Assembly: GCA_023954035.1 (NCBI GenBank)
Contig: JAMLIT010000014.1
Coordinates: 1-64,000 of the forward strand
Reading direction: 5' to 3'
DNA: 64,000 nt
DNA from: Burkholderiaceae bacterium
Lineage (GTDB): Bacteria; Pseudomonadota; Gammaproteobacteria; Burkholderiales; Burkholderiaceae_C
Part shown: one piece after another, positions 5,236-63,712 of the stretch
Layout of the letters: every line of letters starts with the position of its first letter
Numbering within the stretch: the first letter of the stretch is position 1
The notes under the pieces: model-generated
Databases searched by the model: none
What the model saw: the letters and a program-made list of their open reading frames with translations, nothing else
Told to the model about the DNA's origin: nothing
Made by a program: the position numbers and the translations under genes

Positions 5236-7152
5236 GTGCAAGAAGCTTTCTGCCCGTCCCCCAAGCGCCGCCCCATCTGCGACCTGCCCGACGAACTCGT
5301 CAGCCAGATTGCGGCTGGCGAAGTTGTCGAGCGCCCCGCCTCCGTGGTGCGCGAGCTGGTGGACAACGCGCTCGACGCCGGCGCCACGCAGATCACGCTG
5401 CGACTGCTGGCCGGCGGCGTGCGCCTGATCAGTGTGGAAGACGACGGCGGCGGCATTCCCCAGGCAGAGTTGGCTCTGGCGCTGCGCCGCCATGCCACGA
5501 GCAAGATTCGCACGCTGGACGACCTGGAGAGCGTTGCCACGATGGGTTTTCGCGGCGAGGCGCTGGCGGCCATTGCTTCGGTCTCCGAATTGGCCCTGCT
5601 CTCGCGCCCTGCCGGGCAGGACAGCGCCTTTCTGCTCGATGCCCGCAGCGGCGAGCTGCGCCCGGTGGCGCGGGCCGTGGGCACCACCGTCGAAGTCAAA
5701 GAGCTGTTCTTCAGCACGCCGGCGCGGCGCAAGTTCCTCAAAACCGATGCGACTGAGCTGGCCCACTGCGTCGAAGCGGTGCGCCGCCACGCCCTGGCGC
5801 GCCCGGATGTGGGCTTTGCCATCTGGCACGAAGGCAAGCTGGTGCAGCAGTGGCGCACGGCCCTGACGCACGGCGCGGGAGCGGGAGCCCTGGACCGTCG
5901 CCTGGCGGACGTGCTGGGCGAAGAGTTTCTGGACCAATCGGTGGCGCTGCAGCATCAAGAGGGCCGCGTCACCCTCACCGGCCGCGCGGGCTTGCCAGAC
6001 ACGGCACGTGCGCGCGCCGACCAGCAGTACTGCTATGTGAATGGCCGCTTCGTGCGCGACAAGGTGGTGGCCCACGCCGCCCGCAGCGCCTACGAAGACG
6101 TGCTGCACGGCCAGCGCCAGCCGGTGTATGCGCTGTACATCGACATCGACCCGGCGCGCGTGGACGTGAACGTGCACCCCACCAAGATCGAGGTGCGCTT
6201 TCGCGACAGCCGCGAGGTGCACCAGGCCGTGCGCCACGCCATCGAGAACGCCCTGGCCGCGCCGCGCGCAGGAGCTGTGCTGGCCGTGCCCCCGGCCGCT
6301 GCGGCATCCGCGACAGGTGCCTCAGAAACTTCCTTGAATTTTGAACAAAATCGGCCTCCAGCGCTTATTCCACGGGCGCAGGCAGCTATGCAATTTGATG
6401 CTCCCATCGGCCACCGCGTGACCGATCTCGGTGCGCTGTGGGGCAGCGCACGCCTGCCCGAAGGCGAAAGCAGCGCATCGGTTGGCGCTGCTCCTCTTGC
6501 GTGGGAAAGCCCGGCCCCTCTCACGCCCAGTACGCCTGGCACGCCCGATACCCCTCCGGCCACGGTCTGGCCGCTGGGCCGTGCGCTGGCGCAGCTGCAA
6601 GGCATTTACATCCTGGCGGAGAACGCCCAGGGGCTGGTGATTGTCGACATGCATGCGGCGCACGAGCGCATCGTCTACGAGCGCCTCAAGTCGCAGTGGG
6701 ACAGCAGCGCACGCATTGCCAGCCAGCCGCTGCTGATTCCCGCGACTTTTGCTGCCACGCCGCAGGAACTGGCCACCGCCGAGCAGAACGTGGACGCGCT
6801 GGCCGCTCTCGGCCTGGAGATCGCGGCTTTTTCAGCCCGCACGCTGGCCGTGCGCGCTGTGCCCGCCACGCTGGTGCAAGGCGACGCGGTGGAGCTGGCG
6901 CGCAGCGTGCTGGCCGAGTTGGCCGCGCACGACGCAAGCGGCGTGGTGCAGCGCGCACAGAACGAGATATTGGGCACCATGGCCTGCCATGGTGCCGTGC
7001 GTGCCCATCGCAAGCTCACCATCGACGAGATGAACGCGCTGCTGCGGCAGATGGAAACCACCGACCGGTCCGACCAGTGCAACCATGGCCGGCCCACCTG
7101 GCGCCAGCTCGGTCTGCGTGAGCTCGATGCGCTTTTTCTTCGCGGACGCTAG
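5236..7152 (+). CDS. mutL: MutL, DNA mismatch repair protein with endonuclease motifs
   Basis: MutL couples MutS mismatch recognition to strand incision. The N-terminal GHKL ATPase domain shows the ELVDNALDAGA, DDGGGI, ATSKI and GFRGEAL motifs. The C-terminal dimerisation domain carries DMHAAHERIVYE at residues 471-482, which fits the metal-binding D-x-H-A-x2-E-x4-E motif of nicking MutLs, and the later ACHGAVRAHRK and CNHGRPT motifs. The start is a GTG at 5236 without a clear ribosome binding site. The 638-residue protein has a proline-rich linker. Residues about 367-390 of that linker are encoded by a copy of the dispersed palindromic repeat, kept in frame. MiaA, often next to mutL, lies 7 kb downstream. 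Confidence 0.97.
   Translation: MQEAFCPSPKRRPICDLPDELVSQIAAGEVVERPASVVRELVDNALDAGATQITLRLLAGGVRLISVEDDGGGIPQAELALALRRHATSKIRTLDDLESVATMGFRGEALAAIASVSELALLSRPAGQDSAFLLDARSGELRPVARAVGTTVEVKELFFSTPARRKFLKTDATELAHCVEAVRRHALARPDVGFAIWHEGKLVQQWRTALTHGAGAGALDRRLADVLGEEFLDQSVALQHQEGRVTLTGRAGLPDTARARADQQYCYVNGRFVRDKVVAHAARSAYEDVLHGQRQPVYALYIDIDPARVDVNVHPTKIEVRFRDSREVHQAVRHAIENALAAPRAGAVLAVPPAAAASATGASETSLNFEQNRPPALIPRAQAAMQFDAPIGHRVTDLGALWGSARLPEGESSASVGAAPLAWESPAPLTPSTPGTPDTPPATVWPLGRALAQLQGIYILAENAQGLVIVDMHAAHERIVYERLKSQWDSSARIASQPLLIPATFAATPQELATAEQNVDALAALGLEIAAFSARTLAVRAVPATLVQGDAVELARSVLAELAAHDASGVVQRAQNEILGTMACHGAVRAHRKLTIDEMNALLRQMETTDRSDQCNHGRPTWRQLGLRELDALFLRGR
6334..6402 (+). repeat. palindromic repeat copy 1, inside mutL
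   Basis: A degenerate copy of the dispersed element: the core GGCCTCCAGCGCTTATTCC is followed after a short arm by GGCAGCTAT, with AT-rich flanks. It lies in the linker region of mutL and is translated in frame as about 24 residues. Confidence 0.75.
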
Positions 7153-7604
7153 GTGGCTTTCGGACTTGGAGCGGCGAAAGCGAAACCCTGAAGGTTTCAC
7201 GGAAATCGGCCCCAGAGAACACGGTTTTTGCCGGATTTGCCGCCTCACAGATCGGCCAAGGGACGCAAGGACCCTGGTCTCGACAAGCGGCGAAGCCAAA
7301 AATGGACCGCTGCAGCCCATTGGCAGGCGACGATTCACAGCTCCGACGACCCCTGGGTAGGCCTCGCCCGTGCCGGCGCTGGCCGGCGAATTCTCTTGCG
7401 ACTTCTGCGCCGCTGCAGCAAGCATGGGGCTGTGCTTGTTTTTCGACCTTTTTGCACCGTGGTGTGGCCACTTCGCACCGGTTTTGGGCGCTGCCGCCCT
7501 GCAAACGGGCCTGTCCTCCCTATTTTGTTGCATGAACCCATACCGGTTTGGCATAATGTCATGCTGCACTGCCGCAATAGATTTTTTCCCGAAAGACACA
7601 TGCC
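7153..7604. other. gene-free interval between mutL and gdhA
   Basis: This 452-base interval has short open frames on both strands, but none shows a recognisable protein or a ribosome binding site. Just after mutL a small hairpin (GAAACC 7182-7187 and GGTTTC 7193-7198) is present without a T tract. The right end holds the gdhA promoter. I see nothing else I can name. Confidence 0.6.
7528..7557 (+). promoter_or_regulatory. probable sigma-70 promoter of gdhA
   Basis: TTGCAT (7528-7533) and CATAAT (7552-7557) are separated by 18 bases and lie about 50 bases before the gdhA start codon. Both hexamers match the sigma-70 consensus at four or five positions. Confidence 0.55.
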
Positions 7605-14018: not shown

Positions 14019-14997
14019 TGCCCTGCCCTGCCTGGCGCTTGCCGGCCCGACGGCCTCGGGCAAGACCGGCGCCGCGCTGGCGCTGGCCGAACGGCTGGCA
14101 GGCCGGGTGGCGGTGGAAATCGTCAGCGTGGATTCGGCGCTGGTCTACCGCAGCATGGACATCGGCACCGCCAAGCCCAGCCCCGCCGAGCGCGCTGCGC
14201 TGCCGCACCATCTCATTGACATCCGCGAGCCCTGGGAGCCCTACAGCGCCGCCGCCTTTGTGCAAGACGCCACGCGCCTTGTCGGTGAAATTCGCGCTCG
14301 CAATGCGCTGCCGCTGCTGGTGGGCGGCACCATGCTGTACTTCAAGGCGCTTATGGAAGGCCTTGACCCCATGCCGGCCGCCGACCCCGCCGTACGCCAG
14401 CGCATCGAGGCGCAGGCTGCGCAACAGGGTTGGCCGGCACTGCACGCTGAGCTCGCACGCATTGACCCGGTGACGGCCGCGCGCCTGGCCCCGGCGGACA
14501 GCCAGCGCATCCAGCGGGCGCTGGAAGTGTGGGAAGTCTCCGGTCAGCCGCTCTCCGCCTTCCATACTCCTGAAAAGAGAGCTGCTAACGCAGGTGGGAT
14601 AAGCGCTGGAGGCCTTTTTAGCCTTGAACCTGACGACCGCGCCTGGCTGCACACCCGCATTGCAGCGCGCTTTGACACCATGCTGGAGCAAGGCTTTCTT
14701 GAAGAGGTCCAGCGCCTGCGCGCCGACCCGCGCAACCATTCCGAACTGCCGGCCGTGCGCTGCGTCGGTTACCGCCAGGCCTGGCAGGCGCTCGATGCCC
14801 AGGCGGCCAGCGGCGGCCAGCTCGACTGGGCCGATCTGCGCGAGCGCGGCATCGCCGCCACGCGCCAGCTCGCCAAGCGCCAGATCACTTGGCTGCGCGC
14901 AATGCCCCAGCGCCAGCGGATTGCCTGCGATCAGCCCGGCGCACAAACGGCGCTGGAGCGTGCGGTATGGGCGCGGCTGGAGCAGGCTGTGCCATGA
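13993..14997 (+). CDS. miaA: MiaA, tRNA dimethylallyltransferase
   Basis: MiaA transfers an isopentenyl group to A37 of tRNAs that read U-initial codons. The P-loop GPTASGKT is at residues 18-25, followed by [19 protein letters not shown] and the HHLID motif; the second half has CVGYRQAW and [16 protein letters not shown] 13993 was chosen, but TTG 14005, with GGGGAG just before it, is a real alternative. The 334-residue protein contains an insertion at about residues 192-211 coded by a copy of the dispersed repeat. The stop overlaps the next start (ATGA), showing coupling to the ABC ATPase gene. Confidence 0.95.
14566..14625 (-). repeat. palindromic repeat copy 2, inside miaA
   Basis: Reverse-oriented copy with the signature GAGCTGCTAACGC and, after a short loop, AAGCGCTGGAGGCC. 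It is translated in frame within miaA as about 20 residues rich in Ala, Gly and Ser. Confidence 0.75.
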
Positions 14998-16197: not shown

Positions 16198-18792
16198 ATG
16201 TGGTCCTTGTTTCGCGTCTGGTCCTTGCAGGAGTTGCGCCACCACCCCTGGCAGAGCGCCGCGGCCGCCTGCGCCGTGATGCTGGGCGTGGCCCTGGCCT
16301 TCGGCGTGCACACCATCAACGCGTCGGCGCTGGAAGAATTTGCCCAGGCCGCCCGCAGCGTCAGCGGCCAGCCCGACCTGCAGCTGCGCGCTGCGCAAGG
16401 CCACCTGGACGAGCGGCTTTACCCGCTGCTGGCCCGCCAGAGCGAGGTGGCACGCGCCAGTCCGGTGCTGGAGATGCAATTGCAGGCGCAATCAGCCGAG
16501 GCCCCGGCCGGCGCGCCCGACGTGCCGCTGCGCCTGGTGGGCGCCGATGCGCTCCTGCTGCCGGCGACGGCCCCGGCGCTGATGCCGCGCCTCTTTCCCC
16601 GCCTGCCCGCCGACCGCTTCGCACTGTTTGCGCCGGCCACGGTTTTTCTCAACGCCGCAGCGCTGCGCGCCCTGGCGCTGCCGGAAGACCCGCAAAGGGC
16701 GCCGCGCATTGCCCTGCGCCGGGGGCTGGAAGTGTTCAGCGTGCGTGTGGCCGGCAGCGTGGCGGCGGGCGGCGCGCCTCTGGCGGTGATGGACATTGGC
16801 GCGGCGCAAGACCTGTTCGGCCGGGCGGGCGCGCTCAGCCGCATCGACCTGCAGCTGCGCCCCGGTGTGCTGCGCAGCGACTTTCGCACCCGCATGACTG
16901 CCCTGCCCAACTGGCCACCGGGCCTGGTCTGGGGCGAGAGCAGCGACGGCGAGCAGCGCATGGGCGCCTTGTCGCGCGCCTACCGCGTGAACCTGAGCGT
17001 GCTGGCGCTGGTGGCCTTGTTCACCGGCGCGTTCCTGGTGTTTTCGGTGCTCTCGCTCAGCGTGGCGCAGCGCGCGCCGGCCTTTGCACTGCTGGCCGTG
17101 CTGGGCGCCACGCCACGCCAGCGCCTGGGGCTGGTGCTGCTGGAATCGCTGTTTCTCGGCCTGGTCAGCAGCGTGGCCGGGGTGGCGCTGGGCACGGCGC
17201 TGGCGGCGGGTGCGCTGCAGCTGCTGGGGGGCGATTTGGGGGGCGGCTACTTCACCGGCGCGCAACCTGCGCTCCAATGGAACCTTCCTGCGGCTGCAGC
17301 CTATGCCGTGCTGGGCGTGGCGGCGGCCCTGCTGGGCGGCTGGTGGCCGGCGCGCGCGGCCGAAGCCCTGCCGCCAGCGCAGACGCTCAAGGGCCTGAGC
17401 AGCGCAGGCAGCGCCCAGGCGTCGGCATGGCCGGCGCTGGCACTCCTCGCTGGCGGTGCATTGCTGGCGTTTGCGCCGGTGGTGGCGGGCCTGCCATTGG
17501 CGGCCTATGTGTCGGTCGGTGCTCTGCTGCTGGGCGGCATCGCGCTGCTGCCGCGCGCCGTCGCCCTGCTTTTGCGCGCGCTGCGGCCCTGGGCGGCGCG
17601 CAATGCCTTGGCACAACTGGCGATCGAGCGCGCGCGGCGCACGCCGGGCCTGGCCGCCGTGGCCGTGGGCGGCGTGGTGGCCAGCCTGGCCTTGGCGATT
17701 GCCCTCACGGTCATGGTCACCAGCTTTCGTGGCTCGATGGTGCAGTGGCTGGACACCGTGCTGCCAGCGCCTTTGTATGTGCGCGGCGCGGCGGCCGACG
17801 GGCAGGCGGCATTCAGCGCCGACTTCTTGCAGCAGGCCGCGCGTCTGCCCGGCGTGGAGCGCATCGAAGGCCTGCGCAGCGTGCCCCTGCAGCCGGATGC
17901 CGCCCGCCCCGCCGTCGCGCTGATTGCGCGGCCGCTGGCACGCGGCGCGGACCAGGTGCTGCCCCTGACCGCGCCCGCCCTGCCCGTTCCACCGGGCCGG
18001 GTGGCGATCTACGCCAGCGAGGCGGCGGCCGAACTGTGGGGGGCGCAGCCGGGCACGGATTTGGCTCCATTTTTGGAGTCTTTTAGGGCTCTAGCGCAGG
18101 TCCAGCAAGCGCCGCAAGCTCTCTATTTTGTAGCAGGCGTCTGGCGCGACTATGGGCGCCAGACGGGCGCACTGGTGATGGACAGCGCCGACTTCGCCGC
18201 GCTGAGCGGCGAGCGCGGCGCCAACGACCTGGCGCTGTGGCCCGCGCCCGGCGCCGATGTAGCCAAGCTGCGCGCCGCGCTCACGCAACTGGCGCAAAGC
18301 GAATCGGGTCCGGCGGCGGCGGGCGGCCTGGAATTCGCGTCCGCCGGCGAGATCCGCGAGCGCTCGCTGCGCATTTTTGACCGCAGCTTTGCCGTGACCT
18401 ACTGGCTGCAGGCGTTGGCCATCGGCATCGGGCTCTTTGGCGTGGCGGCTAGCTTCAGCGCGCAGGTGCTGGCGCGGCGCAAGGAGTTTGGCCTGCTGGC
18501 ACACCTGGGGCTGACGCGGGCGCAAATTCTGGCCGTGGTGGCCGGCGAAGGCGCGGCATGGACGGGCGTCGGCGCGGCGGCCGGCCTGCTGCTGGGCGTG
18601 GCGGTCTCGCTGGTGCTGGTGCTGGTGGTCAACCCGCAAAGTTTTCACTGGACCATGGAGCTGGCCTTGCCCTGGGGACGCCTGCTGCTGCTGTGCGCTG
18701 CGGTGGTGCTGGCGGGCACGGCGACGGCCTGGCTGGCGGGCCGCGCCGCCGCCGGGCGGGATGCGGTGCTGGCAGTGAAGGAAGATTGGTAG
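16198..18792 (+). CDS. FtsX-like ABC transporter permease, AttFG/LolC type
   Basis: This 864-residue inner-membrane protein has two FtsX-like permease domains. An N-terminal helix (about residues 21-40) precedes a periplasmic domain. A first membrane bundle spans about residues 260-380, further helices follow about 400-470 and 480-515, then a second periplasmic domain, and a final bundle at about 730-860. The pattern matches fused permeases that work with MacB/LolD-like ATPases. Residues 623-646 in the second periplasmic domain are encoded by a copy of the dispersed repeat. The ATPase gene lies upstream across an antisense hsp20 gene; an AttH/CrtC-like gene lies 1.7 kb downstream. Substrate unknown. 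Confidence 0.87.
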   Translation: MWSLFRVWSLQELRHHPWQSAAAACAVMLGVALAFGVHTINASALEEFAQAARSVSGQPDLQLRAAQGHLDERLYPLLARQSEVARASPVLEMQLQAQSAEAPAGAPDVPLRLVGADALLLPATAPALMPRLFPRLPADRFALFAPATVFLNAAALRALALPEDPQRAPRIALRRGLEVFSVRVAGSVAAGGAPLAVMDIGAAQDLFGRAGALSRIDLQLRPGVLRSDFRTRMTALPNWPPGLVWGESSDGEQRMGALSRAYRVNLSVLALVALFTGAFLVFSVLSLSVAQRAPAFALLAVLGATPRQRLGLVLLESLFLGLVSSVAGVALGTALAAGALQLLGGDLGGGYFTGAQPALQWNLPAAAAYAVLGVAAALLGGWWPARAAEALPPAQTLKGLSSAGSAQASAWPALALLAGGALLAFAPVVAGLPLAAYVSVGALLLGGIALLPRAVALLLRALRPWAARNALAQLAIERARRTPGLAAVAVGGVVASLALAIALTVMVTSFRGSMVQWLDTVLPAPLYVRGAAADGQAAFSADFLQQAARLPGVERIEGLRSVPLQPDAARPAVALIARPLARGADQVLPLTAPALPVPPGRVAIYASEAAAELWGAQPGTDLAPFLESFRALAQVQQAPQALYFVAGVWRDYGRQTGALVMDSADFAALSGERGANDLALWPAPGADVAKLRAALTQLAQSESGPAAAGGLEFASAGEIRERSLRIFDRSFAVTYWLQALAIGIGLFGVAASFSAQVLARRKEFGLLAHLGLTRAQILAVVAGEGAAWTGVGAAAGLLLGVAVSLVLVLVVNPQSFHWTMELALPWGRLLLLCAAVVLAGTATAWLAGRAAAGRDAVLAVKEDW
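18064..18135 (+). repeat. palindromic repeat copy 3, inside the ABC permease gene
   Basis: Diverged copy recognised by GGGCTCTAGCGCAGG, then AAGCGCCGCAAGCT and a TATTTTGTAGCA tail. It is AT-richer than the surrounding gene and is translated in frame as about 24 residues. Confidence 0.65.
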
Positions 18793-28357: not shown

Positions 28358-28361
28358 AGGG

Positions 28362-28432
28362 CAAAAATTTAACTATAAATATGCCTCTAGCGCTTATCCA
28401 TAAACGTTTTATTGCTATTTTTAATATAGCAT
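28362..28432 (+). repeat. palindromic repeat copy 4, between convergent genes
   Basis: Core GCCTCTAGCGCTTATCC with degenerate second arm and a TTGCTATTTTTAATATAGC tail. It fills most of the 86-base gap between the exporter and the DUF1178 gene, both of which end here. It may serve as a transcription end or RNA-stabilising element. Confidence 0.75.
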
Positions 28433-28443
28433 CAAGAAGCGCG

Positions 28444-43828: not shown

Positions 43829-43843
43829 TCCCGGATTCTACTC

Positions 43844-43884: not shown

Positions 43885-43888
43885 CTCT

Positions 43889-44311: not shown

Positions 44312-44368
44312 TCTCTATTCACTCCGGTTGATCTCGTGGATGGATTCGCTTGCCGCGCGGCGCGACCC

Positions 44369-46104: not shown

Positions 46105-46117
46105 GGCGAGAGAGGCT

Positions 46118-46186
46118 GAAATTTCATATGATTTTGGCCTCTAGCGCTTACACAGCAAGCGCTAGTAGCTATTAAATCAATAGCAA
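46118..46186 (+). repeat. palindromic repeat copy 5, the best-preserved copy
   Basis: Perfect 9-base arms CTAGCGCTT (46141-46149) and AAGCGCTAG (46157-46165) with a seven-base loop, preceded by TTTTGGCCT and followed by TAGCTATTAAATC. It lies between pnp and the quinone reductase gene and serves as the reference copy for the family. Confidence 0.85.
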
Positions 46187-46199
46187 AAGCCCTTTTGTC

Positions 46200-48461: not shown

Positions 48462-48472
48462 TTTTGCTCCTG

Positions 48473-48520
48473 TTTATATAGCTAGTAACGCAATACCAGC
48501 AAGCGCCAGAGCCCTTTCAG
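48473..48520 (-). repeat. palindromic repeat copy 6, in the pnp leader
   Basis: Reverse-oriented, diverged copy with TATAGCTAGTAACGC and AAGCGCCAGAGCC. It sits directly upstream of the pnp ribosome binding site and about 85 bases after the rpsO terminator, so it would be part of the pnp mRNA leader. Confidence 0.65.
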
Positions 48521-48604
48521 AACACGATGCCATTCCAGTGAAACCGCGCGCGGAACTTCAATGGAATGACACAGCTTCGATCTGCAGGAACCGCTGGCAA
48601 AGTA

Positions 48605-49538: not shown

Positions 49539-50114
49539 ATGCCACTCTGCCCTTCTCTCCGTCATTCCGTCGCAGCGCGAAACCGCCCGTACGAACGAGG
49601 ATTTACCGCCATCGAACTCATGGTGGTGGTGGCCATTGTGGCCATTTTGGCGGCGTTGGCTGGACCGAGCTTTCGAGATCTGATCGACGGCTGGCGGGTG
49701 CGCAGCGCAGTCGAAGAAATTACCAGCACGATTTACTACGCGCGATCTGAGGCGATTAAGCGGGGAGGCCGCGTTTCCGTCCGAAAGAACTGCGCGGCGG
49801 GAACGGCACAAGAATGGCAGTGCGGCTGGATTGTTTTTACCGACACAAATTCAAACGGCGTATTGAATACTGGCGGCGCCAATCCGGATGTGATTCTTCA
49901 GACCTACTCCGCGCAACAAGGGGTGAATGTGAACCACCTTCGGAACTCGGCTTTCTTCACGCTTGACAGGTGGGGGCAGATCAATGGCTTGGGCGCTGCC
50001 AGCTTTTCGTTCACGCCTGAAGGGCTGGGCAGTTCTTCGCGGCATGCTTCTGCTCTGTGCGTAACCTCTGGCGGTCGTATCAAAACGACGAAGGATACCG
50101 TTTCATGCCCTTGA
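49539..50114 (+). CDS. fimT: FimT/GspH family minor pseudopilin
   Basis: This 191-residue minor pilin has the prepilin peptidase site G|FTAIELMVVVAIVAILAAL at about residue 21, with Glu at +5 of the mature protein. The rest matches the GspH/FimT pseudopilin domain, including TIYYARSEAIKRGG, and a C-terminal cysteine. It opens a six-gene cluster of minor pilins and PilY1 for type IV pilus assembly. Its stop overlaps the pilV start by 10 bases. Confidence 0.9.
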   Translation: MPLCPSLRHSVAARNRPYERGFTAIELMVVVAIVAILAALAGPSFRDLIDGWRVRSAVEEITSTIYYARSEAIKRGGRVSVRKNCAAGTAQEWQCGWIVFTDTNSNGVLNTGGANPDVILQTYSAQQGVNVNHLRNSAFFTLDRWGQINGLGAASFSFTPEGLGSSSRHASALCVTSGGRIKTTKDTVSCP

Positions 50115-50728
50115 AAAACAAAATGGAGCGTGGATTTGCGCTCATCGAATCGATGGTGGCCATTGTGGTGGTGGCGCTTGGCATTTTGGGCATTATTGGC
50201 GTGCAAATGCGCACCTTGGCCGATACCCAGACCGGTGTGCGCCGTGCCCAGGCCATACGACTGATCGAGGACCTCAGCGAACGCCTGAAGGTCAATCCCA
50301 ACGCCTTAGGCAATATTGCAAGCTACGAAATCGCAGCCGGACCCCAGCCCGCTCCGCCCAATTGCAAGACCAATCCGTGCAATGCGCAGAATTTGGCCCT
50401 GGCCGACATTCGCAATTGGCGCCAAACGGTGGTGGATGCGCTGCCGCTCGGTGATGCCGTCGTATTCCAAGTCGCCGACGAGGCCCTGCCCACCAATCAC
50501 CGGCAGTTGGGCGTTCTTTTGAGTTGGCGCGAGAACGAACGCGCAGACGGAACGGCAGCAGAAAACGCAGCCTACAAAAATGTGTTTAACCTGGACGCCA
50601 CGGGCGTCGCCGGAGCGAGCTGCCCAGCTGGCCGCAGTTGCCATCTGCAATATATCCAGTTGACGTCACGGTGTAGCCCGTATCTGCTGGGCGGTGTGGC
50701 CGCTCCGACAGTGTTTTGCCCATTTTGA
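50105..50728 (+). CDS. pilV: PilV, type IV pilus minor pilin
   Basis: This 207-residue minor pilin has the cleavage site ERG|FALIESMVAIVVVALGILG at residue 9-10 and the PilV-type LADTQTGVRRAQAIRLIEDLSERL stretch, read in parts. Several cysteines in the C-terminal region could form a disulfide. Start 50105 was chosen inside the fimT 3' end as the first ATG before the prepilin leader. Confidence 0.88.
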   Translation: MPLKNKMERGFALIESMVAIVVVALGILGIIGVQMRTLADTQTGVRRAQAIRLIEDLSERLKVNPNALGNIASYEIAAGPQPAPPNCKTNPCNAQNLALADIRNWRQTVVDALPLGDAVVFQVADEALPTNHRQLGVLLSWRENERADGTAAENAAYKNVFNLDATGVAGASCPAGRSCHLQYIQLTSRCSPYLLGGVAAPTVFCPF

Positions 50729-50763
50729 CCCGCCTCTGATCACTCAACCTACCTCCACCCACC

Positions 50764-51696
50764 ATGCCTTCTTTTCCCAGTCCACCGCCGCGATTTGGAA
50801 GCGCGCCCGCAAGAGGGATGACACTGGTCGAGCTGATGGTCGGCATCGCCGTCGGCTTGCTCGTCATTGCGGTCGCAACGGGCGCTTTGATGGTATCGCG
50901 CGGCGTTTCCGGTACGGTCACAGATGCGAGCCAATTACAGCAGCAGGCATCCTATGCGTTTCGAATCCTTGGACAACAGATTCGGCAGGCTGGTTCAATG
51001 CAGCTGAATCTTGCGGCAAACAAAAGCCCTGGAGATCCCATTCTGATCGAAGATTTTGTTGCATTTTCACCGAATACCGAAATATATTCCGCGCTCCCCG
51101 AAACCGTTCCGCCCAATACACCCGCAGTCAGTGGCAAGGATGCTCCAGCTGCTGGCGAATATAGACTTTCCCTTGCGTTTCAAAATTACGAGGAACCGAG
51201 TTTTCCCGGCGGGGCCACCGTCTCTTTCTTTCGAGATTGCTTGGGCGCTCAACCTTCATCGACAATTATTCAAAGCCAGTTCGTTTTGGACACGGTCTTG
51301 GGTGAACTTCGCTGCGCCGGGTCGAACAATGTTCCGCAGTCGCTGATCCGCAATGTGGCTGATTTTCAAGTCAGATATCTCATTCAAAATCGCGCTGCAG
51401 CGCAAAGCGGTCTTCCGACGATTCAGTACGTAAGTGCCGCGGGGGTACCGCCCATTCCCGCAGGTGGGGCGACAGATTGGTCGACCGTCTTTGGCGTGGA
51501 AGTGTGTCTGGTGCTGTATGGCGATGAACCCATCGACATGCCTGCCGGCAGTGACTACACGGGATGCGTCGACGCCGATGGGAATGGCCTTTTCGACAAA
51601 GTCGTCATGACCTCGCTGGCGGGAGCGCGAAGGAACCGCCTGCACATGGCCTTTCGCTCCGTCTTCCAGCTACGCAGCCAGGGTTTGGCCGGCTGA
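50764..51696 (+). CDS. pilW: PilW, type IV pilus minor pilin
   Basis: This 310-residue minor pilin has the leader ending in ARG|MTLVELMVGIAVGLLVI at residue 18-19 and the PilW pattern of QQQASYAFRILGQQIRQAG near residue 60. The C-terminal half is poorly conserved except for FQLRSQG at the end. It follows pilV by 35 bases. Confidence 0.88.
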   Translation: MPSFPSPPPRFGSAPARGMTLVELMVGIAVGLLVIAVATGALMVSRGVSGTVTDASQLQQQASYAFRILGQQIRQAGSMQLNLAANKSPGDPILIEDFVAFSPNTEIYSALPETVPPNTPAVSGKDAPAAGEYRLSLAFQNYEEPSFPGGATVSFFRDCLGAQPSSTIIQSQFVLDTVLGELRCAGSNNVPQSLIRNVADFQVRYLIQNRAAAQSGLPTIQYVSAAGVPPIPAGGATDWSTVFGVEVCLVLYGDEPIDMPAGSDYTGCVDADGNGLFDKVVMTSLAGARRNRLHMAFRSVFQLRSQGLAG

Positions 51697-51716
51697 ACCA
51701 CCGAAAGAGACCACCC

Positions 51717-52466
51717 ATGCGACGCACTCCTTGCCATCGATCACCGAAACGCCAGCGCGGTATCTCGCTGTTCGTGGTGATTGTGTTCGTCATGCTGTCG
51801 ATGCTGCTCGCCCTGTGGGGCGCGCGCACCTCGTTGTTCAATGAAATGGTGGTGGGAAACGACGCCGACTACCAACGTGCATTTGAAGCGGCCCAGGCAC
51901 TCATCCAAGACGCAGAGCTGGACATCCGTGGCGAGCGGCCGGACGGCACAGCCTGCGTTCGTAGCATCCCCAACGTTACTGCGGACACATGCCGCCCCGC
52001 TGCGACGGCGCTGGTCTGGTTTCCTACCGAAGACAAGGAATTTGCTGACATCGTCTCTACTTTGGAGAAAAAAACAGCGACCAAATTCTGCTTCAAGGGC
52101 CTATGCCTCAAACGGACAGGTAACCAGGATTTTTGGAACGACAAAACCACCTTGGACGCGATGCTTCCGGAGGGAGCGCGCTACGGCCAGTTCACCGGCG
52201 CTGAGATCGGCACGGCCGGCAGCACGGGCAGCAGTCCCATTCTGAAGAGCACTGTGGCCGACCGAGGGGGCTGGTATTGGATCGAAGTGATGCCGTACGA
52301 CCCCAACGCTGGAAACTCCGGCCTTATCACCAACGGCTCCACCAATCTCGCTCTCAATCTGAAACCCAGCATTGCCTATCGGATTACCGCGGTAGCGAGG
52401 GGGCTCAAGGCGAGCACGCAGGTGGTGTTGCAATCGACCTTCGTTCGCCAAAAGGTCAAGAACTGA
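51717..52466 (+). CDS. pilX: PilX, type IV pilus minor pilin
   Basis: This 249-residue protein has the PilX-type leader KRQRG|ISLFVVIVFVMLSMLLALWGAR, which lacks the usual Glu at position 5, then NEMVVGNDADYQRAFEAAQALIQDAE. Four cysteines in the central region may form disulfides. Start ATG 51717 is chosen because the leader begins there. It follows pilW by 20 bases and precedes pilY1 by 13. Confidence 0.87.
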   Translation: MRRTPCHRSPKRQRGISLFVVIVFVMLSMLLALWGARTSLFNEMVVGNDADYQRAFEAAQALIQDAELDIRGERPDGTACVRSIPNVTADTCRPAATALVWFPTEDKEFADIVSTLEKKTATKFCFKGLCLKRTGNQDFWNDKTTLDAMLPEGARYGQFTGAEIGTAGSTGSSPILKSTVADRGGWYWIEVMPYDPNAGNSGLITNGSTNLALNLKPSIAYRITAVARGLKASTQVVLQSTFVRQKVKN

Positions 52467-52479
52467 CTGGAGAAAAATA

Positions 52480-55400
52480 ATGAAAGAATCACTAAGCTTG
52501 CAAAGAAATCTCCTGGCAGCGCTGATTGCCGGTATCTATGCCTGTCAGCCGGTGTTTGCGGACCCACTGGACCTCTCCAAACTACCTCCCGGGCTGGTCG
52601 CCATTCCCCCGGCTCCCAACGTCATTCTGACCGTAGACGATTCTGGAAGCATGAGCGAGAGTGCAGGCGACGGCAAATCGAAGATTTTCCGTCTCAGCGA
52701 AGCATTGGGGACCGTCTTTAACGACAAGCTCCTGCTGCCTGACGGGAAGATTCGCCTTGCCTGGCAGGCCATGTGGAACAACGGAGGTTCTCCTGGCGCC
52801 GGATCGCTGAGCGCAGGTGCTACCAACTCGATGAAGGTGCTTGATACTACGCATCGCGCCAACTTCCTGGCATTTGCTTCCGGCCTGAAAGCAAGTAACG
52901 GAACTCCTTCGCACAAGATGATGAAGCAGGCCTACGACTACATGAAGACGGGCAAAGGAATTGACAGCCCGTGGGCATATTCTCCGGGAACAAAGGAAGC
53001 GCCGTACCTGGGATGTCGCCGGGCGTATCACATTTTCCTTACCGATGGTGCGTGGAACGGCTACTCCGCGAGCGTTTTGCCCGGCAACGGAGACAATACG
53101 GACATCACCTTGCCGGACGGGGTCGTTTACAGTACCTCGTCAGCGCAGACCAACGTTTATCGTGGAAAATCGAACAATCTGCAAAATCTTCTTGCAGACT
53201 GGGCCATGAGGATGTGGGCGGAGGACCTGCAGCCAGGTATCTCCGACGATCTCAAGGCAAGCACGACGGACGGCGTTCCCAGCACGGAGACCTACGGTTC
53301 CGTCGCACTGCAGCGGTATTGGAACCCCAAACACGACCCTGCCTCCTGGCAGCATGTGGTTCACTACACGATTGGCTATGGTCAAAGCGCCTATAAATGG
53401 CCCAGCGAACCCAAATGGTCTGCAGCGGACGATGACAATTATGGTGCCGGCGGCGACTATTCCAAACTTGTGCAAGGAACTTCGGATTGGGCGCCAACGA
53501 CGTTCGGCAATCTCAACTCCAATAACCCAGCCGAGCTGTGGCATATGGCGATCAATAGCCGCGGCAAGTTCTATCCAACGGGCCCCGGGCGTAAATATGG
53601 CCTGAAGGAGGCATTCCAAAAAATCGTCGAGGACATCAACCTCCAGAACACGGCAGATGTTGCGAGCATGGCTGGAAGTGCCAGCACCAATATTCGAAAG
53701 GACCTAAAGGAGTACGTGGCAGGTTACGACCCGAAGCGCTGGTCTGGCTATGTGAAATCCAACAATGTGGACACGAAAGGCACGGTGACCCCCAATACGG
53801 ATTGGGGAACGACGGGTGGCGGTTCGCCCAATACCACGGCCAATCTGCTGGACGCGGCCAATATCAATTCGCGCGTCATCCTGACTACCAATACCGACGT
53901 CCCAAACAAAGGCGTGTCTTTTGAATGGGACAGCGGCGGCGCCACCTTCAGCGCCGCGCAGAAGGCGCTGCTCGATGTCGATGGATTGGGCGAAGATCGA
54001 GTCAATTTCCTGCGCGGGGACCGCACCAAGGAAGGCGGCACGCTGCCCTTCCGCGTTCGCGACTCGCGGCAAGGCGACATCGTCAATTCCAACGTGTGGT
54101 ACGTTGACGCGCCGCCAAGCAACTACTTTTTCACGGGATACAAGGCCTTTTCCGCCTTGCATAGAGACCGGCTGCCGATGATTTACGTGGGCGGCAACGA
54201 TGGCATGCTGCATGGGTTTTCGGCCAAAACCGGGCAAGAGCAGATCGCCTACGTTCCCAAGGCCGTCATCCCTGAACTGAAAAAACTCAGCGATCCCGGT
54301 TATTCGCATCGTTACTTTGTCGATGGATCACCGTTCACGGGCGATGCAAATGTGGCGGCTGTTGGAAACCCGTCCGATTGGCGCACTTTGCTGGTAGGAA
54401 CGCTGGGCGCAGGTGGCAAGGGGTATTTCATCCTCGATGTGACCCAGCCGGGCAGCAAGGACGGCAGCGTTGCGTCGACGTTCACCACCGGTAACGCCGC
54501 CAGCCTGGTCGTGCTGGACCGGACGCTGCATCCCAGCGAACCCTTGACCTCGCCCAGCGACGACGAGGATATTGGCCACATCTTTGCGGCCCCCGTGGTC
54601 GACGACAACAACCCATTCAAGTCCAGCCAGGTGGCGCTGATGAACGACGGCCGCTGGGCGGTCGTGATGGGAAATGGCTACAACAGCAAGAACGAGCGTC
54701 CCGTTCTGCTGATCCAATATCTCGACGACACCAACAAGGTCAACGGAGTTCGGGAGCTCAAACGCATCGTTGCTACCGGTTCCCAGGTTCTGAGCACGCC
54801 GGTAAATCCGACGACAGACGCCAACGTGATTGCCAATGGTCTTTCGGCGCCCAGGCTGGTCGACATTGACAGCGACGGCAAGGTAGACATCGCCTACGCT
54901 GGCGACCTCAAGGGCAATCTCTGGAAGTTCGATCTTACGAGCGCTACCGCTTCCAACTGGGGGGTTGCTGTCTGGGGAAGTGCGAGCACGACCCCATGCA
55001 CCACGGCGATCTGCACCCCTCTGTTTACCGCCAGCTATTTGGGCAAGCGCCAAGCCATTACCGCCCCGCCAGTCGTCAAGCCCAACGACCGGGGTGCCGG
55101 TGGAATGATGGTGGCCTTTGGGACTGGCGTTAATCTCACCGACAACGATCGCAGCAGTACGGATGTGCAGTCCGTGTATTCTGTGTTGGACAACACCAAA
55201 TACCGTTTGGACTCAGGCCATGTCGTCATCAATACCAACACCGCTCCAAAGACTGCCGCAAACCCGACCGGTGGCGGCGCGATCCCAACCGCTGTTGTAG
55301 CAAGCAATCTGGTGCAGCAGGATCTCGTCGGTGGCGCGATCGCCGGCCAAGGCAAAAGCTCGGCACGGACGTTCTGGCAGATGACGCAAAATTCCGTCAA

Positions 55401-55839
55401 CTATGTCGACACGACAAAACCGCTGAACAAGGGCTGGTATTTCAACTTCCAGGTAACCGGCGAACGGGTTCTCAAACCGATCAACTTCTTTGACGCCAGC
55501 AACAATCTGATGGTGTTCTCCACGACACCCGCCTACGGTGGCAATGGCAGCACGGAGGAATCTTGCGAACCGGCGGGTACTCCGGAAAAGCAGTACCTCA
55601 CGCTGATGAACATCATGGACGGCAAGCGCCCAAGCGTGCAGGTGATGGACACCAACGGCGATGGTCTTTATAACAGCGGCCCGGACAAGGATGCATCGCG
55701 GATGACGCTGCCTCCGGGCGCGGTCAGTGTCGTGGCAGGCAAGGATAAGATCACGATTTCGGGCGGCGACGGCAAGCCCGACGAACTCGCCCGCATGCCT
55801 GAACAACCCATGCGCCCCAGCTGGCGCCAACTGCAATGA
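52480..55839 (+). CDS. pilY1: PilY1, type IV pilus tip adhesin/assembly factor
   Basis: This is a 1119-residue secreted protein that primes pilus assembly and can act in adhesion or mechanosensing. A signal peptide ends near residue 27 (VFAD). A von Willebrand A-like part follows, with a MIDAS-type DDSGSMS (residues 53-59). The C-terminal half has the PilY1 beta-propeller with [12 protein letters not shown] near residue 569. Calcium-loop-like DxDxDGxxD sequences occur at 795-803 (DIDSDGKVD) and near 1057 (DTNGDGLYN). No RGD is evident. The stop overlaps the pilE start. Confidence 0.92.
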
Positions 55840-56303
55840 CCTTGGGCATCATCATGTCGCGTGCAACAAGTCTTTCTCACTGTCGCCAGCGTCAGCACGG
55901 CTTTACGCTGATCGAGGTGATGATCGTGGTAGCGATCGTCGGCATTCTTGCTGCCGTGGCGTACCCCAGCTATGCCGAATTTATTCGGCGCGGCCACCGT
56001 GCGGAGGCCCGCGCCGGCCTGTTGCAGGCCGCGCAATGGATGGAGCGGGCTGCCACGGCGCGTGGCACCTACCCGCTTACGGCCCAATTCCCGACCAATT
56101 TGACAAAGGTGCCCGGGGGTCGGTACGACATTGCTGCGGTGTCCAATGGAACGACATTCACATTGAGCGCCACGCCGAAGTCTGGAACCCCCCAGTTCGG
56201 CGACAAGTGCGGTATCTACACCCTGGACAACACAGGTGCTCGCACAGCCAACGGCAAGAAACCTACTGACTCTGGCTACGACGATACGTGCTGGGGCAAA
56301 TAA
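55836..56303 (+). CDS. pilE: PilE, type IV pilin-like protein
   Basis: This 155-residue type IV pilin-like protein has the leader [28 protein letters not shown], with Glu at +5 and a hydrophobic helix. The C-terminal domain has two cysteines (DKCGIYTLD and DDTCWGK) that would form the D-region disulfide. ATG 55836 overlaps the pilY1 stop (ATGA); ATG 55854 is an alternative. It ends the pilin cluster. RibD follows after 25 bases. Confidence 0.88.
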
Positions 56304-56328: not shown

Positions 56329-57450
56329 ATGACCACCGCAGCGCCACCACTCATGCAACAAGCGCTTGGGCTCGCCGCCCAGGCGCTTTTTTTATCCAGC
56401 CCCAACCCGCGCGTGGGCTGTGTGATCGCTCGCGCAGACGGCACGGTGCTGGGCCAAGGCTTCACCCAGCAGGCTGGCGGGCCCCATGCCGAAGTCATGG
56501 CGCTGCGCGATGCCGCGGCGGCAGGTGCCGAGGTGCGTGGGGCCACTGCCTATGTCACGCTGGAGCCTTGCGCGCACCAGGGGCGCACCGGGCCCTGCTG
56601 CGATGCGCTGGTGGCGGCCGGCATTGCGCGGGTGGTGGCCTGCGTCGAGGACCCCAACCCGCTCGTGGCCGGCCAGGGCTTTGCGCGCTTGCGCGCGGCC
56701 GGCGTGGATGTGCACGTGGGCCCGGGCGCCGACGCTTCGCGCGAGCTGAACATCGGTTTTTTCAGCCGCATGCTGCGCGGCACGCCGTGGGTGCGGCTGA
56801 AAGTTGCCGCCTCGCTCGACGGCATCACGGCGCTGAACAACGGCGCCAGCCAATGGATCACCTCGCCCGAAGCACGCGCCGATGGCCAGGCCTGGCGCGC
56901 CCGCGCCTGCGCTGTGCTGACCGGCATTGGCACGGTGCTGGCGGACGACCCGCGGCTGGACGTGCGCGAGCTTTCCACCCCGCGCCAGCCGCAGGCGGTG
57001 GTGCTGGACAGCCGCTTGCAAACGCCGCCAGGTGCTCGTATTTTCATAGCTGACCGCCCTACAACCATCTGCGCTGGCGGCCATTTTGATGCTGAAACCG
57101 CTGGGCGCAAGGCTGCCTTGCAAGCCCGGGGCGCGACCGTGATCGATCTGCCGGGGGACGGTGGCGGCGTCGATCTTCCCGCGCTGCTTCGCCATCTGGG
57201 GGCGCAAGGCGTGAACGAGCTGCACGTGGAGGCTGGCCACCGCCTCAACGGCGCATGGCTGCGCGCCGGGCTGGTGGACGAGCTGCTGCTGTACCTTGCC
57301 CCGCGCCTGTTGGGTCCGGGCCGGGGGCTGGCCGAATTGGCGCCGCTGCACGCGCTGGCCGATGCGGTGGCGCTGCGATTCCACGATGTGCAAGCGGTCG
57401 GGCCGGACTTGCGCGTGCTGGCACGCATTGCGCGTGCGCCGGAGCGCTGA
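56329..57450 (+). CDS. ribD: RibD, bifunctional riboflavin deaminase-reductase
   Basis: This 373-residue enzyme carries out the second and third steps of riboflavin synthesis. The deaminase zinc ligands are in HAEVMALRDA and PCAHQGRTGPC; the reductase domain has VRLKVAASLDGITAL and the C-terminal LLLYLAPRLLG. Residues 238-255 in the reductase domain are encoded by a repeat copy. No FMN riboswitch is visible upstream. The ribE gene follows after 39 bases. Confidence 0.95.
   Translation: MTTAAPPLMQQALGLAAQALFLSSPNPRVGCVIARADGTVLGQGFTQQAGGPHAEVMALRDAAAAGAEVRGATAYVTLEPCAHQGRTGPCCDALVAAGIARVVACVEDPNPLVAGQGFARLRAAGVDVHVGPGADASRELNIGFFSRMLRGTPWVRLKVAASLDGITALNNGASQWITSPEARADGQAWRARACAVLTGIGTVLADDPRLDVRELSTPRQPQAVVLDSRLQTPPGARIFIADRPTTICAGGHFDAETAGRKAALQARGATVIDLPGDGGGVDLPALLRHLGAQGVNELHVEAGHRLNGAWLRAGLVDELLLYLAPRLLGPGRGLAELAPLHALADAVALRFHDVQAVGPDLRVLARIARAPER
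57040..57093 (-). repeat. palindromic repeat copy 7, inside ribD
   Basis: Reverse-oriented copy: ATTTTCATAGCTGACCGCC, then TGCGCTGGCGGCCATTTTGAT. Central arms are partly eroded. It is translated in frame as about 18 residues. Confidence 0.6.
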
Positions 57451-58125: not shown

Positions 58126-59219
58126 GCCAGCGCGGCCCGGTGCGCATCGAAGACCGGCACGGGTTCGACGCCGTGATCGACGCCCGTTCGCCGGCCGAGT
58201 TCGCCATCGATCACCTGCCCGGCGCGATCAACTGCCCGGTGCTGGACGATGAGGAGCGCCGTATCGTCGGCACGCTCTACAAGCAGCAGGGGGCTTTTGA
58301 GGCACGGCGCGTCGGCGGCGCCATGGTCGCGGCCAATCTGGCGCGCCACTTGCGCGAGCGCTTTGCCGACAGGCCTGCCACGTGGAGGCCGCTGGTGTAC
58401 TGCTGGCGCGGGGGCATGCGCAGCGGCTCCATGGTGACCTGGCTGCGCCTGGTGGGCTGGGACGCGCAGCAACTGGCCGGCGGTTACAAGGCGTGGCGGC
58501 GCCATGCCATCACGCAGATCGATACCTTGGCGCCGCAGCTGCATCTGCGCGTGCTCTGCGGGCCCACGGGCAGTGCGAAGACGCGCGTGCTGCAGGCGCT
58601 GGCGGAGCGTGGCGCGCAGACGCTGGACCTGGAAGGCCTGGCGCGCCACAGGGGTTCGGTTCTGGGCGGGTGGCCGGGGGTGGCGCAACCTGCACAGACA
58701 GCATTCGAGACGGCGCTGGCCGACGCCATCGAGCGCCTGGAGCCGGCGCAGCCGGTGTATGTGGAGGCAGAAAGCGCGCGCATTGGAAAGATCAGCGTGC
58801 CGCCAGCCTTGGTCCGGCGCCTGCGCGCCAGCCCCTGCGTGGAGATAGTGGCCAGCGCCGAGGCGCGGCTGGATTTTCTGCTGCGCGACTACGCCAACCT
58901 GGGCGACGACCCTGAGCTGCTGGCGCGCCAGCTGCACGGCCTGCGCGAGCTGCACGGCGGCGACGTCATTGCGCGCTGGCAAGCCTGGGCGCATGCGCGC
59001 GATCTGCCTGCGCTGTTTTCCGAGCTGATGGCCCGCCACTACGACCCGCTGTATGCGCGCTCGCAGGGCACGAACCTCAAGCATTGGGCGCAGCGCCAGC
59101 GCGTGGCGGCGCACACGCTGGCGCCCGCAGCCATCGAGAGGCTGGCCGCGGAGATCCTTGCCCTGCCTGCGCACGCTTGGGGCGCAGAACCAAGGCAGCC
59201 GGCCCTGGGCGAAAATTGA
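58122..59219 (+). CDS. mnmH: MnmH (SelU), tRNA 2-selenouridine synthase
   Basis: This enzyme replaces the sulfur of 2-thiouridine in tRNA wobble positions by selenium through a geranylated intermediate. The 365-residue protein has an N-terminal rhodanese domain with the catalytic Cys94 in VYCWRGGMRSGS, and a C-terminal P-loop GPTGSAKT at 147-154. The C-terminal Gly-Glu-Asn and stop codon fall in repeat copy 8, which may have shortened it. ATGA overlap with ribE shows coupling. SelD is not seen in the window. Confidence 0.92.
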   Translation: MSQRGPVRIEDRHGFDAVIDARSPAEFAIDHLPGAINCPVLDDEERRIVGTLYKQQGAFEARRVGGAMVAANLARHLRERFADRPATWRPLVYCWRGGMRSGSMVTWLRLVGWDAQQLAGGYKAWRRHAITQIDTLAPQLHLRVLCGPTGSAKTRVLQALAERGAQTLDLEGLARHRGSVLGGWPGVAQPAQTAFETALADAIERLEPAQPVYVEAESARIGKISVPPALVRRLRASPCVEIVASAEARLDFLLRDYANLGDDPELLARQLHGLRELHGGDVIARWQAWAHARDLPALFSELMARHYDPLYARSQGTNLKHWAQRQRVAAHTLAPAAIERLAAEILALPAHAWGAEPRQPALGEN

Positions 59220-59280
59220 TAGTGAAATTGGCCCTTAGCGCTTATTGGCAAAGCGCTGACAGCTATTTTGTTTATAGCAA
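59212..59280 (+). repeat. palindromic repeat copy 8, at the mnmH stop
   Basis: Core GGCCCTTAGCGCTTATTGG, second arm AAGCGCTGACAGCTAT and a TTTGTTTATAGC tail. It covers the mnmH stop codon (59217-59219) and reaches to within 12 bases of the convergent DUF2249 stop. Confidence 0.78.
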
Positions 59281-59291
59281 CGGTTGACCAA

Positions 59292-59653: not shown

Positions 59654-61051
<1,398 letters not shown>

Positions 61052-61176
61052 GGCAGGCTTTCTTGGCAAACGTGGACCGGTACGGCGGCTGCCTGCCAGC
61101 ATAGCGCGCACAGTGCAAAAAATCCTGCCCGCCGGCCAAGGCCGGGCCGCGACAGGCCTGCGCAAGGCAGCAGCGC

Positions 61177-61182
61177 GATAAT
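61177..61182 (+). promoter_or_regulatory. possible -10 of fumA
   Basis: GATAAT lies 35 bases before the fumA start in the divergent fumC/fumA region. No clear -35 was seen. Confidence 0.3.
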
Positions 61183-61217
61183 TCGGGATTTCGCGACCCC
61201 TGCAAAGCACCTCTGCC

Positions 61218-62765: not shown

Positions 62766-62772
62766 GGCGGAC

Positions 62773-63660
62773 TTGGGCCAGGCGAACTCGCCGGCAGATC
62801 GGGCACGCCCGGCGCCCATTGGGGTCTTTGACAGCGGCATTGGGGGCTTGAGCGTTCTACAGGCGCTGCGCGCCGAATTGCCGGCAGAGCGCTTCGTCTA
62901 TTTGGCCGACACCGGCCACGCGCCCTACGGCGAACGGGGCGACGCCTTTGTCGCGCGGCGCACCCATGTGCTGGCCCGCTACCTTGTGCAACAGCACGGC
63001 GTCAAAGCCCTGGTGGTCGCCTGCAACACCGCCACGGCGGCCGCGATGGACAGCTTGCGCCAGCGCTACCCCCACCTGCCCCTGGTGGGCGTGGAGCCGG
63101 CGCTCAAGCCGGCCGCCAGCGCCACCCGCTCGCAGCGGATCGCCGTCATGGCCACCCGCGGAACCGCCAGCAGCGCACGGTTCGAACGCTTGCTGGCCGC
63201 GCTTCCGCCCGGCGTGCAATGCAGCGTGCAAGCCTGCGACGGCCTGGCCAGCGCCATCGAAGCCCAGGCGGCCTGCACACCCGACGCCGCAGCCGCTGGC
63301 ACCGCCAGCACGCTGGAACTGTGTCGGCGCTATGCCGATGCGCTGGGACCCTGGGGCGAGCGAGCCGGCGAGAGCGACACGCTGGTGCTGGGCTGCACAC
63401 ACTACGTGTTTGCTCAGGACGTGCTGCAGCGGCTCGTCGGGCCCAGGGTGACCATTGTCAGCACGGGCGAGCCGGTGGCACGCCAGACGCGGCGGCTACT
63501 GGCCAGAACGAATCGCCTGCAAGCGGTGGGCCGCATGGCGCCGCAGCCGGACGTGTGCCTCCTGACCACCGGCGCTGCAGCACCGCTCGCCTTGGCAGCG
63601 CAGCGCTGGCTGGGCTTGGGGTTGTCCGTGCGCAGCTTGGGAGTGCGCGGAAAAAATTAG
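62773..63660 (+). CDS. murI: MurI, glutamate racemase
   Basis: This enzyme makes D-glutamate for peptidoglycan. The 295-residue protein has GVFDSGIGGLSV with Asp20, VVACNTATAAA with Cys84, and LVLGCTHYVF with Cys208, the two-cysteine racemase centre. The first in-frame start outside fumA is TTG 62773, with GAGGCGG close upstream; the ATG start within fumA at 62605 is unlikely. It ends in repeat copy 9. Confidence 0.93.
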   Translation: MGQANSPADRARPAPIGVFDSGIGGLSVLQALRAELPAERFVYLADTGHAPYGERGDAFVARRTHVLARYLVQQHGVKALVVACNTATAAAMDSLRQRYPHLPLVGVEPALKPAASATRSQRIAVMATRGTASSARFERLLAALPPGVQCSVQACDGLASAIEAQAACTPDAAAAGTASTLELCRRYADALGPWGERAGESDTLVLGCTHYVFAQDVLQRLVGPRVTIVSTGEPVARQTRRLLARTNRLQAVGRMAPQPDVCLLTTGAAAPLALAAQRWLGLGLSVRSLGVRGKN

Positions 63661-63712
63661 GTCAAATAGCCCTCTAGCGCTTGCAAATCAAGCGCTTGCA
63701 GCTATTATTTCA
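63659..63712 (+). repeat. palindromic repeat copy 9, after murI
   Basis: Perfect 8-base arms AGCGCTTG (63676-63683) and CAAGCGCT (63689-63696) with a five-base loop, preceded by AAATAGCCCTCT and followed by TGCAGCTATTATTTC. It fills most of the gap between the convergent murI and the last gene. Confidence 0.83.

Follow-up and report, generated by a model that had tools for sequence, protein, structure and literature searches.

Nine copies of a similar sequence lie dispersed, in both orientations, over the 64,000-nucleotide window analysed here (the whole stretch of DNA under study, contig C6 of the 3.33-Mb draft genome G000, which comprises 76 contigs), and the question is what they are and how they came to be there. 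A preliminary description took them for a possibly mobilised element of the repetitive extragenic palindromic (REP) type. Our data suggest a different answer: the copies are candidate DNA uptake signals of a naturally transformable lineage, the best available explanation, to which we give a probability of about 0.58 from sequence comparison. By a narrower balance, they would represent a third independent uptake-sequence system, in Comamonadaceae, with a motif of about 68 bp, A/T tracts, dialects and a ComP-like reader encoded in the window itself. We favour uptake sequences because of the apparent origin of the motif by substitution in place, its depletion from coding sequence, its A/T tracts, its dialects and its absence from some relatives.

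When the nine copies are aligned in 77 columns, the resulting profile recovers them and no others in the window at a threshold of E ≤ 1e-10, the runner-up (E 0.034) being the reverse strand of copy 5; their places and both orientations had been described correctly to within about 10 bp. The word AAGCGCTAG occurs four times in the window against 0.28 expected, two of the four being the two arms of copy 5. A 37-base consensus finds at most 24 matching bases in ten Markov sequences and 26-34 in seven of the copies; copies 6 and 7, with 23 matches, are distinct only when their flanks are included. Genome-wide search with a covariance model (R1) yielded at least 150 copies in G000, of which copy 5, itself part of the training set, scored best. 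A 400-kb stretch of another motif-rich genome, G012, contains 53 unique copies, one per 7.5 kb. Among the controls, neither Markov nor reversed sequence gave a copy, and 400 kb of the motif-free genome G002 gave one weak match. Such strong over-representation in both orientations is expected of uptake sequences. The view of the copies as a dispersed element typical of its family is borne out by these numbers and by the range of the motif, which is characteristic of Comamonadaceae.

Architecture of the motif and its turnover in place

Judging by the 53 copies from G012, the unit is sharply bounded and asymmetric, about 68 bp long, and holds about 61 bits of information, which extends from column 8 to about column 76 and is nearly lacking in the flanks. 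Its order is GGCCTCTAGCGCTTAT-n5-AAGCGCTA-n-CAGCTAT, with A/T tracts on both sides. The unit originally described is real, but the sequence that the copies share is longer and takes up most of the 77-column alignment. The outer A/T tracts are spaced about one helical turn apart, and several columns take A or T at about equal frequency, a hint that shape may be read instead of base. The loops between the arms vary among copies, and at all nine pairs of the arms the paired counts from 103 copies lie near the independent expectation. No Rfam match was found in the window.

Net length at orthologous sites was scaled such that 77 denotes the same length and 0 an empty site, empty being taken as 0 ± 12. 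Between G012 and a second species, G007, 25 of 55 and 26 of 65 copies had anchors in both flanks, the two directions covering partly the same sites. Net length was exactly 77 in 12 and 13 of these and within 60-95 in 21 and 22, and none of the 51 comparisons (0 of 25 and 0 of 26) revealed an empty site. The remaining eight values are 55, 42, -18 and -89 in one direction and 112, 243, 172 and 99 in the other; at the site with -18 both genomes carry the motif. Comparison of G012 with 400 kb of G002 (380 kb joined and one 20-kb stretch) anchored 6 of 53 copies, with net lengths of 77, 81, 71, 67, 51 and 21, the last three with 71-307 unaligned flank bases.

Copies in the window can also be followed individually into relatives. 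Motif-bearing relatives mostly have the motif at the same sites, where G002, G005 and G008 have native sequence. In these three genomes, in that order, the ribD site (copy 7) measures 77 bp in each, the miaA site (copy 2) 77, 80 and 83 bp and the pnp leader site (copy 6) 81, 77 and 77 bp, while the mutL site (copy 1), which lies in a variable linker, measures 71 bp in G002 and 66 bp in G005 as compared to 77. From the pnp stem-loop to the start codon there are 64, 69, 69 and 73 bases in the motif-free genera g2, g9, g8 and g6, and 63-66 in motif-rich g1. MiaA served as the main comparison with more distant proteins, because phmmer does not align RibD unambiguously through the motif region. Across the region, the solved chains 2zm5, 3crm and 2qgn, which we take to be MiaA of E. 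coli, P. aeruginosa and a Bacillus, have 4 fewer, 7 more and 4 fewer residues, whereas an insertion would add 26. Turnover at the motif sites is mostly length-neutral, and the equal lengths together with the lack of empty sites among the anchored comparisons speak against insertion. In-place evolution of a recognised motif is well supported by these comparisons. Origin by substitution in place is likewise expected of uptake sequences; same-length overwriting is also compatible with the data.

Scored with a position-specific scoring matrix (PSSM), the orthologous site reaches at least 30 bits for 22 of the 25 and 25 of the 27 copies anchored between G012 and G007. Identical places in all relatives, which the preliminary description had named as speaking against its own reading, are thus largely what is seen between these two species. 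Four sites are polymorphic at equal length, with 55 versus 31, 31 versus 5, 41 versus 0 and 51 versus -7 PSSM bits. The first two of these, 168187 and 119551 (the latter presumably in a coaBC-like gene), differ by scattered single changes, whereas the other two, 372645 and ribD, are densely changed across the unit. In the unfiltered equal-length pairs (12 and 13 in the two directions), the high-information columns differ at 43 of 408 and 48 of 442 positions (10.5-10.9%), the other motif columns at 103 of 516 and 113 of 559 (about 20%), and the flanks, largely coding, at 169 of 1440 and 215 of 1560 (11.7-14.1%). The contrast within the motif goes beyond that obtained by permuting columns (0 of 2000 and p 0.0005), i.e. 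the informative columns are conserved relative to the others.

According to gene predictions from a simple codon-usage gene finder, 14 of 55 copies in G012 and 13 of 65 in G007 are wholly intragenic, compared to 78% and 77% of random windows. The motif is under-represented in coding sequence, with 27 of 120 copies wholly inside predicted genes, which is again a property of uptake sequences; a further 19 and 24 copies, respectively, overlap a gene end. The intragenic copies occur in both orientations, and 10 of 14 in G012 and 8 of 13 in G007 lie in a single reading phase for their orientation. Spacing is somewhat more even than random in G007 (coefficient of variation 0.72 versus a 5-95% range of 0.81-1.19) but not in G012 (0.83 versus 0.78-1.21). 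Chromosomal polarity is little or none (p 0.034 and 0.157, from the 95 G012 and 42 G004 copies among the matches listed, each genome having at least 150), and from this part of the copies, replication polarity of the kind known for Chi or the FtsK orienting polar sequences (KOPS) is weak at best.

Range, dialects and a candidate receptor

Within the source genus, 23 of 26 genomes, G000 included, have at least 77 copies, and the remaining three, G002, G005 and G008, have 0, 3 and 1. A 60-genome search found the motif in 6 of 10 genomes from other genera of Comamonadaceae and in 0 of 24 outside the family. A wider draw gave at least one match in 121 of 299 family genomes and 67 of 141 genera, with 10 or more in 81 genomes. 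In named genomes, 66 stretches matched an exact pattern; they bear the labels Acidovorax, Paenacidovorax, Giesbergeria, Simplicispira, Comamonas, Extensimonas and Rhodoferax or broader group names. In a tree of polynucleotide phosphorylase (PNPase), a single gene that is partial in G008, and with the outgroup genomes G042, G048 and G039 left out, G002, G005 and G008 group as a single clade (100/99) within the motif-bearing genus, with G001 and G010 as its sister group (87/88). Because this clade is nested inside the genus, the motif has apparently been lost clade-wide, and in view of the near-equal site lengths the loss probably occurred in place. No rival over-represented motif was found in motif-free G002, the top over-represented words of which look like codon usage.

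Two other genera have dialects of their own, the copies having been located with the g1 model and hence with a bias against other dialects. In g3 (G027), the core reads GCCCTT in all 14 distinct copies examined (15 loci, two of which share one copy), which breaks the dyad, whereas g1 copies have GCGCTT, with G at the differing position in 94% of 53. The 15 loci of g10 (G034) give the consensus TTGCGCCC/GGGCGCAA, and in both genera the outer parts of the unit are unchanged. At two orthologous sites each genus has its own dialect, and the intervals are 17 and 27-29 bp shorter. Lineage-specific dialects are a further property expected of uptake sequences, and since many sites have shifted together, they suggest a trans-acting reader.

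The window encodes a candidate for this reader, a ComP/PilE-like minor pilin. A subtype of this pilin, with a signature around RGHRAxARxGLLQAxQWxER, occurs in 16 of the 17 motif-rich genomes examined and in 1 of the 7 motif-poor ones (Fisher 0.0003; 0.002 when g3 and g10, the dialect genera, are taken to lack it), in a comparison for which the subtype was defined after the alignment had been inspected, 13 positives trained its profile, the negatives G008 and G033 are incomplete genomes, related genomes are not independent, G031 falls in neither class and G016 has no pilin match in the stretches covered. Subtype scores are 209-255 bits in 16 of the 17 motif-rich g1-dialect genomes, 133 and 123 in g3 and g10, 114 in G031 (18 copies) and 54-117 in six of the seven motif-poor family genomes. 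Of the genomes that were not used to train the profile, G013, G021, G028 and G005 carry the subtype, and G010 lacks it. The co-occurrence is imperfect, and since the motif density of G010 is about that of its sister G001, a recent pilin swap in G010 is possible.

Near pnp, another pilin type replaces the subtype in G002 (C14:842249-842542) and G010 (C19:28410-28538), whose tree neighbours G005 and G001 retain it. In motif-bearing G028, the ComEC domain match is in three pieces (C1:1836740-1837544), and of the genomes searched that have at least 70 copies, only one has a lower best motif score.

One copy is matched by 6 of 72,556 plasmid records and 1 of 50,697 phage-collection records, and five stretches in IMG/VR viral contigs (L300-L304), which may be prophage edges or viral DNA, match one exact core pattern. 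Good copies (53-58 PSSM bits) are also carried by integron arrays with sul1 and qacEdelta1 (L297, L298 and L299, at about 2481-2558 in each) in records from Escherichia, Acinetobacter and Salmonella, three of seven matching records having been examined. Their neighbours are aadA5 and blaOXA-2, with the motif in a DUF1010 reading frame, or dfrA12 and aadA2. The cassettes that bear the motif may derive from Comamonadaceae.

Features of the window

Table 1. Motif copies and pilin genes in the window, and parts of the unit in the 77-column alignment
Feature	Position	Strand	Context
Copy 1	6329..6405	+	inside mutL, between annotated domains, reading frame open
Copy 2	14562..14638	-	inside miaA (IPPT domain), reading frame open
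Copy 3	18062..18138	+	inside FtsX-type permease gene, reading frame open
Copy 4	28358..28434	+	directly after ABC transporter gene (26510-28357)
Copy 5	46112..46188	+	between pnp and alcohol dehydrogenase gene, both minus-strand
Copy 6	48462..48538	-	pnp leader, between conserved stem-loop and start codon
Copy 7	57030..57106	-	inside ribD (RibD_C domain), reading frame open
Copy 8	59206..59282	+	between convergent genes 58122-59219 (+) and 59654-61279 (-)
Copy 9	63645..63721	+	end of Asp/Glu-racemase-like gene (62605-63660) and beyond
Minor pilin gene cluster	49539..55839	+	GspH/FimT-like, Tt1218/PilV-like, PilW, PilX, PilY1
ComP/PilE-like minor pilin gene	55836..56303	+	candidate receptor; ComP_DUS, 73.9 bits; ends cluster
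W-tract	columns 8-13
Second W-tract	columns 20-24
Core GGCCTCTAGCGCTTAT	columns 25-40
Variable loop	columns 41-45
AAGCGCTA	columns 46-53
CAGCTAT	columns 55-61
W-tract	columns 64-66
ATAGC	columns 69-73
Last short W-tract	columns 74-76

Three copies had been placed between convergent genes. This holds for copy 8 and may hold for copy 4, but not for copy 5, with its two minus-strand neighbours. Nearly 18 kb of the window (28435-46111) are free of copies. The longest interval between copies in the G012 stretch covers this region too; it measures 29.8 kb, of which 92% can be aligned to G007. A tRNA-Leu (gag) lies at 43692-43776 on the minus strand. At 59654-62765 two unrelated fumarase genes adjoin, one of the FumC type on the minus strand and another, presumably of the iron-sulphur type, on the plus strand; their called starts overlap.

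Competing explanations and known systems

Together, these patterns lead us to infer recognition during uptake, the identity of the receptor and a drive. A type IV pilus with the ComP-like minor pilin would prefer motif-bearing DNA, and the A/T tracts, about one helical turn apart, could make the duplex easier to bend or kink at the outer membrane. Once inside, the imported DNA would recombine and so slowly raise matching sites to about one per 7 kb where coding allows. If the receptor or competence were lost, the sites would decay in place, and if specificity shifted, the sites would follow and give rise to dialects. Passages of PMC4212676 describe type IV pilus-dependent uptake with signs of sequence selectivity in Verminephrobacter and report that Acidovorax temperans was transformed solely by DNA of its own species; no uptake signal is named in these passages. 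A literature search on the core words gave no title or abstract on Comamonadaceae among the matches listed.

Several points weigh against recognition during uptake, apart from the way in which the pilin subtype was defined and compared. The motif is rarer and far longer than the uptake signal sequences (USS) and DNA uptake sequences (DUS) of other bacteria. Length is not preserved throughout: the copy with net length -89 (266491) is missing from G007, the corresponding interval there being 166 bp shorter, a difference larger than the unit, and one G002 site is 56 bp shorter. The informative columns are only slightly less divergent than the largely coding flanks. As to depletion from accessory DNA, no difference was found, which is uninformative because the G012 and G007 stretches overlap only by about half. 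The ComP_DUS family as such is present in 30 of 30 genomes, and ComEC in 27 of 30, with and without motif; neither separates motif-rich from motif-poor genomes. Even the subtype has its exceptions, since G010 is motif-rich (at least 79 copies) with another pilin (score 70), and G005 has kept the subtype (221 bits) with 3 copies. Finally, the same passages (PMC4212676) report that DNA from A. facilis, A. defluvii and A. delafieldii failed to transform A. temperans, although exact g1-dialect matches were found in genomes labelled A. facilis and A. defluvii.

The rival that survives best, unlikely though we consider it, is a genome-wide binding site of a chromosomal protein with a role in nucleoid organisation, segregation or recombination, selected directly and unrelated to uptake. 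It equally predicts in-place evolution, conserved informative columns, co-evolved dialects and enrichment outside genes, and it would suit the somewhat even spacing in G007, if not that in G012. However, absence from relatives and patchiness within genera would be odd for a housekeeping site, there is little or no chromosomal polarity, and 61 bits are far above the need for a few hundred sites. This model also leaves the co-occurrence with the pilin subtype unexplained.

Patchwise overwriting, in which short tracts of gene conversion or templated repair copy the motif over sequence of the same length, would account for equal length together with the high similarity of the copies, and the dense changes at 372645 and ribD, two of the four polymorphic sites, are in keeping with it. 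The scattered single changes at 168187 and 119551 and the loops that differ among copies speak against it, and overall we regard it as improbable.

A REP-like element, or one resembling miniature inverted-repeat transposable elements (MITEs), moved by a REP-associated tyrosine transposase (RAYT) or another transposase, would explain at least 150 similar copies with a dyad core, and Y1_Tnp-family genes are indeed present in 18 of 22 genomes of the genus tested. Yet these genes do not follow the motif, being present in motif-free or motif-poor G002, G005 and G008 and not found in motif-rich G003, and in four motif-rich genomes no motif flanks them, the sole exception being a weak match about 0.3 kb from the gene in G012. 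Of the signs of mobility proposed in the preliminary description, many copies were confirmed, whereas empty sites in relatives were not seen in the 51 anchored comparisons, and four copies of the window lie over native codons, miaA and ribD among them. With equal-length sites, arms that do not covary and informative columns conserved relative to the others, a mobile element is largely contradicted and very improbable. An element that acts in RNA, for instance as a terminator or a processing hairpin, which the dyad core and the many copies in intergenic regions or at gene ends might suggest, is just as improbable, being largely contradicted by the independent variation of the arms, the g3 dialect that breaks the dyad in the 14 copies examined, the intragenic copies in both orientations and the lack of an Rfam match in the window.

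Strong preference for a short motif in DNA uptake has been described from two families, according to passages of PMC7811141. If the copies are indeed uptake signals, a third bacterial family would have uptake tags, with a much longer motif, and its dialects, natural loss clade and candidate receptor would permit an independent test of how tags originate and are read. The selective uptake reported in Verminephrobacter could then have its signal in this motif, which would also be relevant to barriers to recombination among a large group of environmental bacteria. Even with a reader unrelated to uptake, hundreds of long motifs that evolve in place and shift together need a trans-acting cause, and we know of no system from which such a cause could be named.

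Among known systems, the USS of Haemophilus and other Pasteurellaceae are described, in the passages cited, as arising by point mutation rather than insertion (PMC7811141, PMC1939737) and as depleted from coding sequence, with a 9-bp core, A/T-rich flanks and about one copy per kb (PMC7811141). The Comamonadaceae motif resembles them, as far as these passages go, in being dispersed, evolving by point mutation, avoiding coding sequence, combining a core with A/T tracts and being confined to a family. It differs in its length of about 68 bp, its 61 bits, its density of about one per 7 kb, its unrelated sequence and the A/T tracts on both sides of the core. The DUS of Neisseria, which are read by ComP, are about 10-12 bp long and occur in thousands of copies. 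Passages of PMC3630211 describe lineage-specific dialects of DUS and their absence from some relatives. Dialects and motif-free relatives are shared features on that account, as may be a ComP-family minor pilin, a candidate subtype of which accompanies the motif; here, by contrast, the receptor is a candidate only and the association with its subtype has exceptions. Like REP sequences and bacterial interspersed mosaic elements (BIMEs), the motif is short, contains a dyad and is present in hundreds of copies, most of which lie outside genes, but it shows no sign of insertion, no link to RAYT and no pairwise conservation of the dyad. Rickettsia palindromic elements are insertions that lengthen proteins. 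Like them, the Comamonadaceae motif lies within protein genes and leaves the frame open, but the length of the proteins is unchanged or nearly so.

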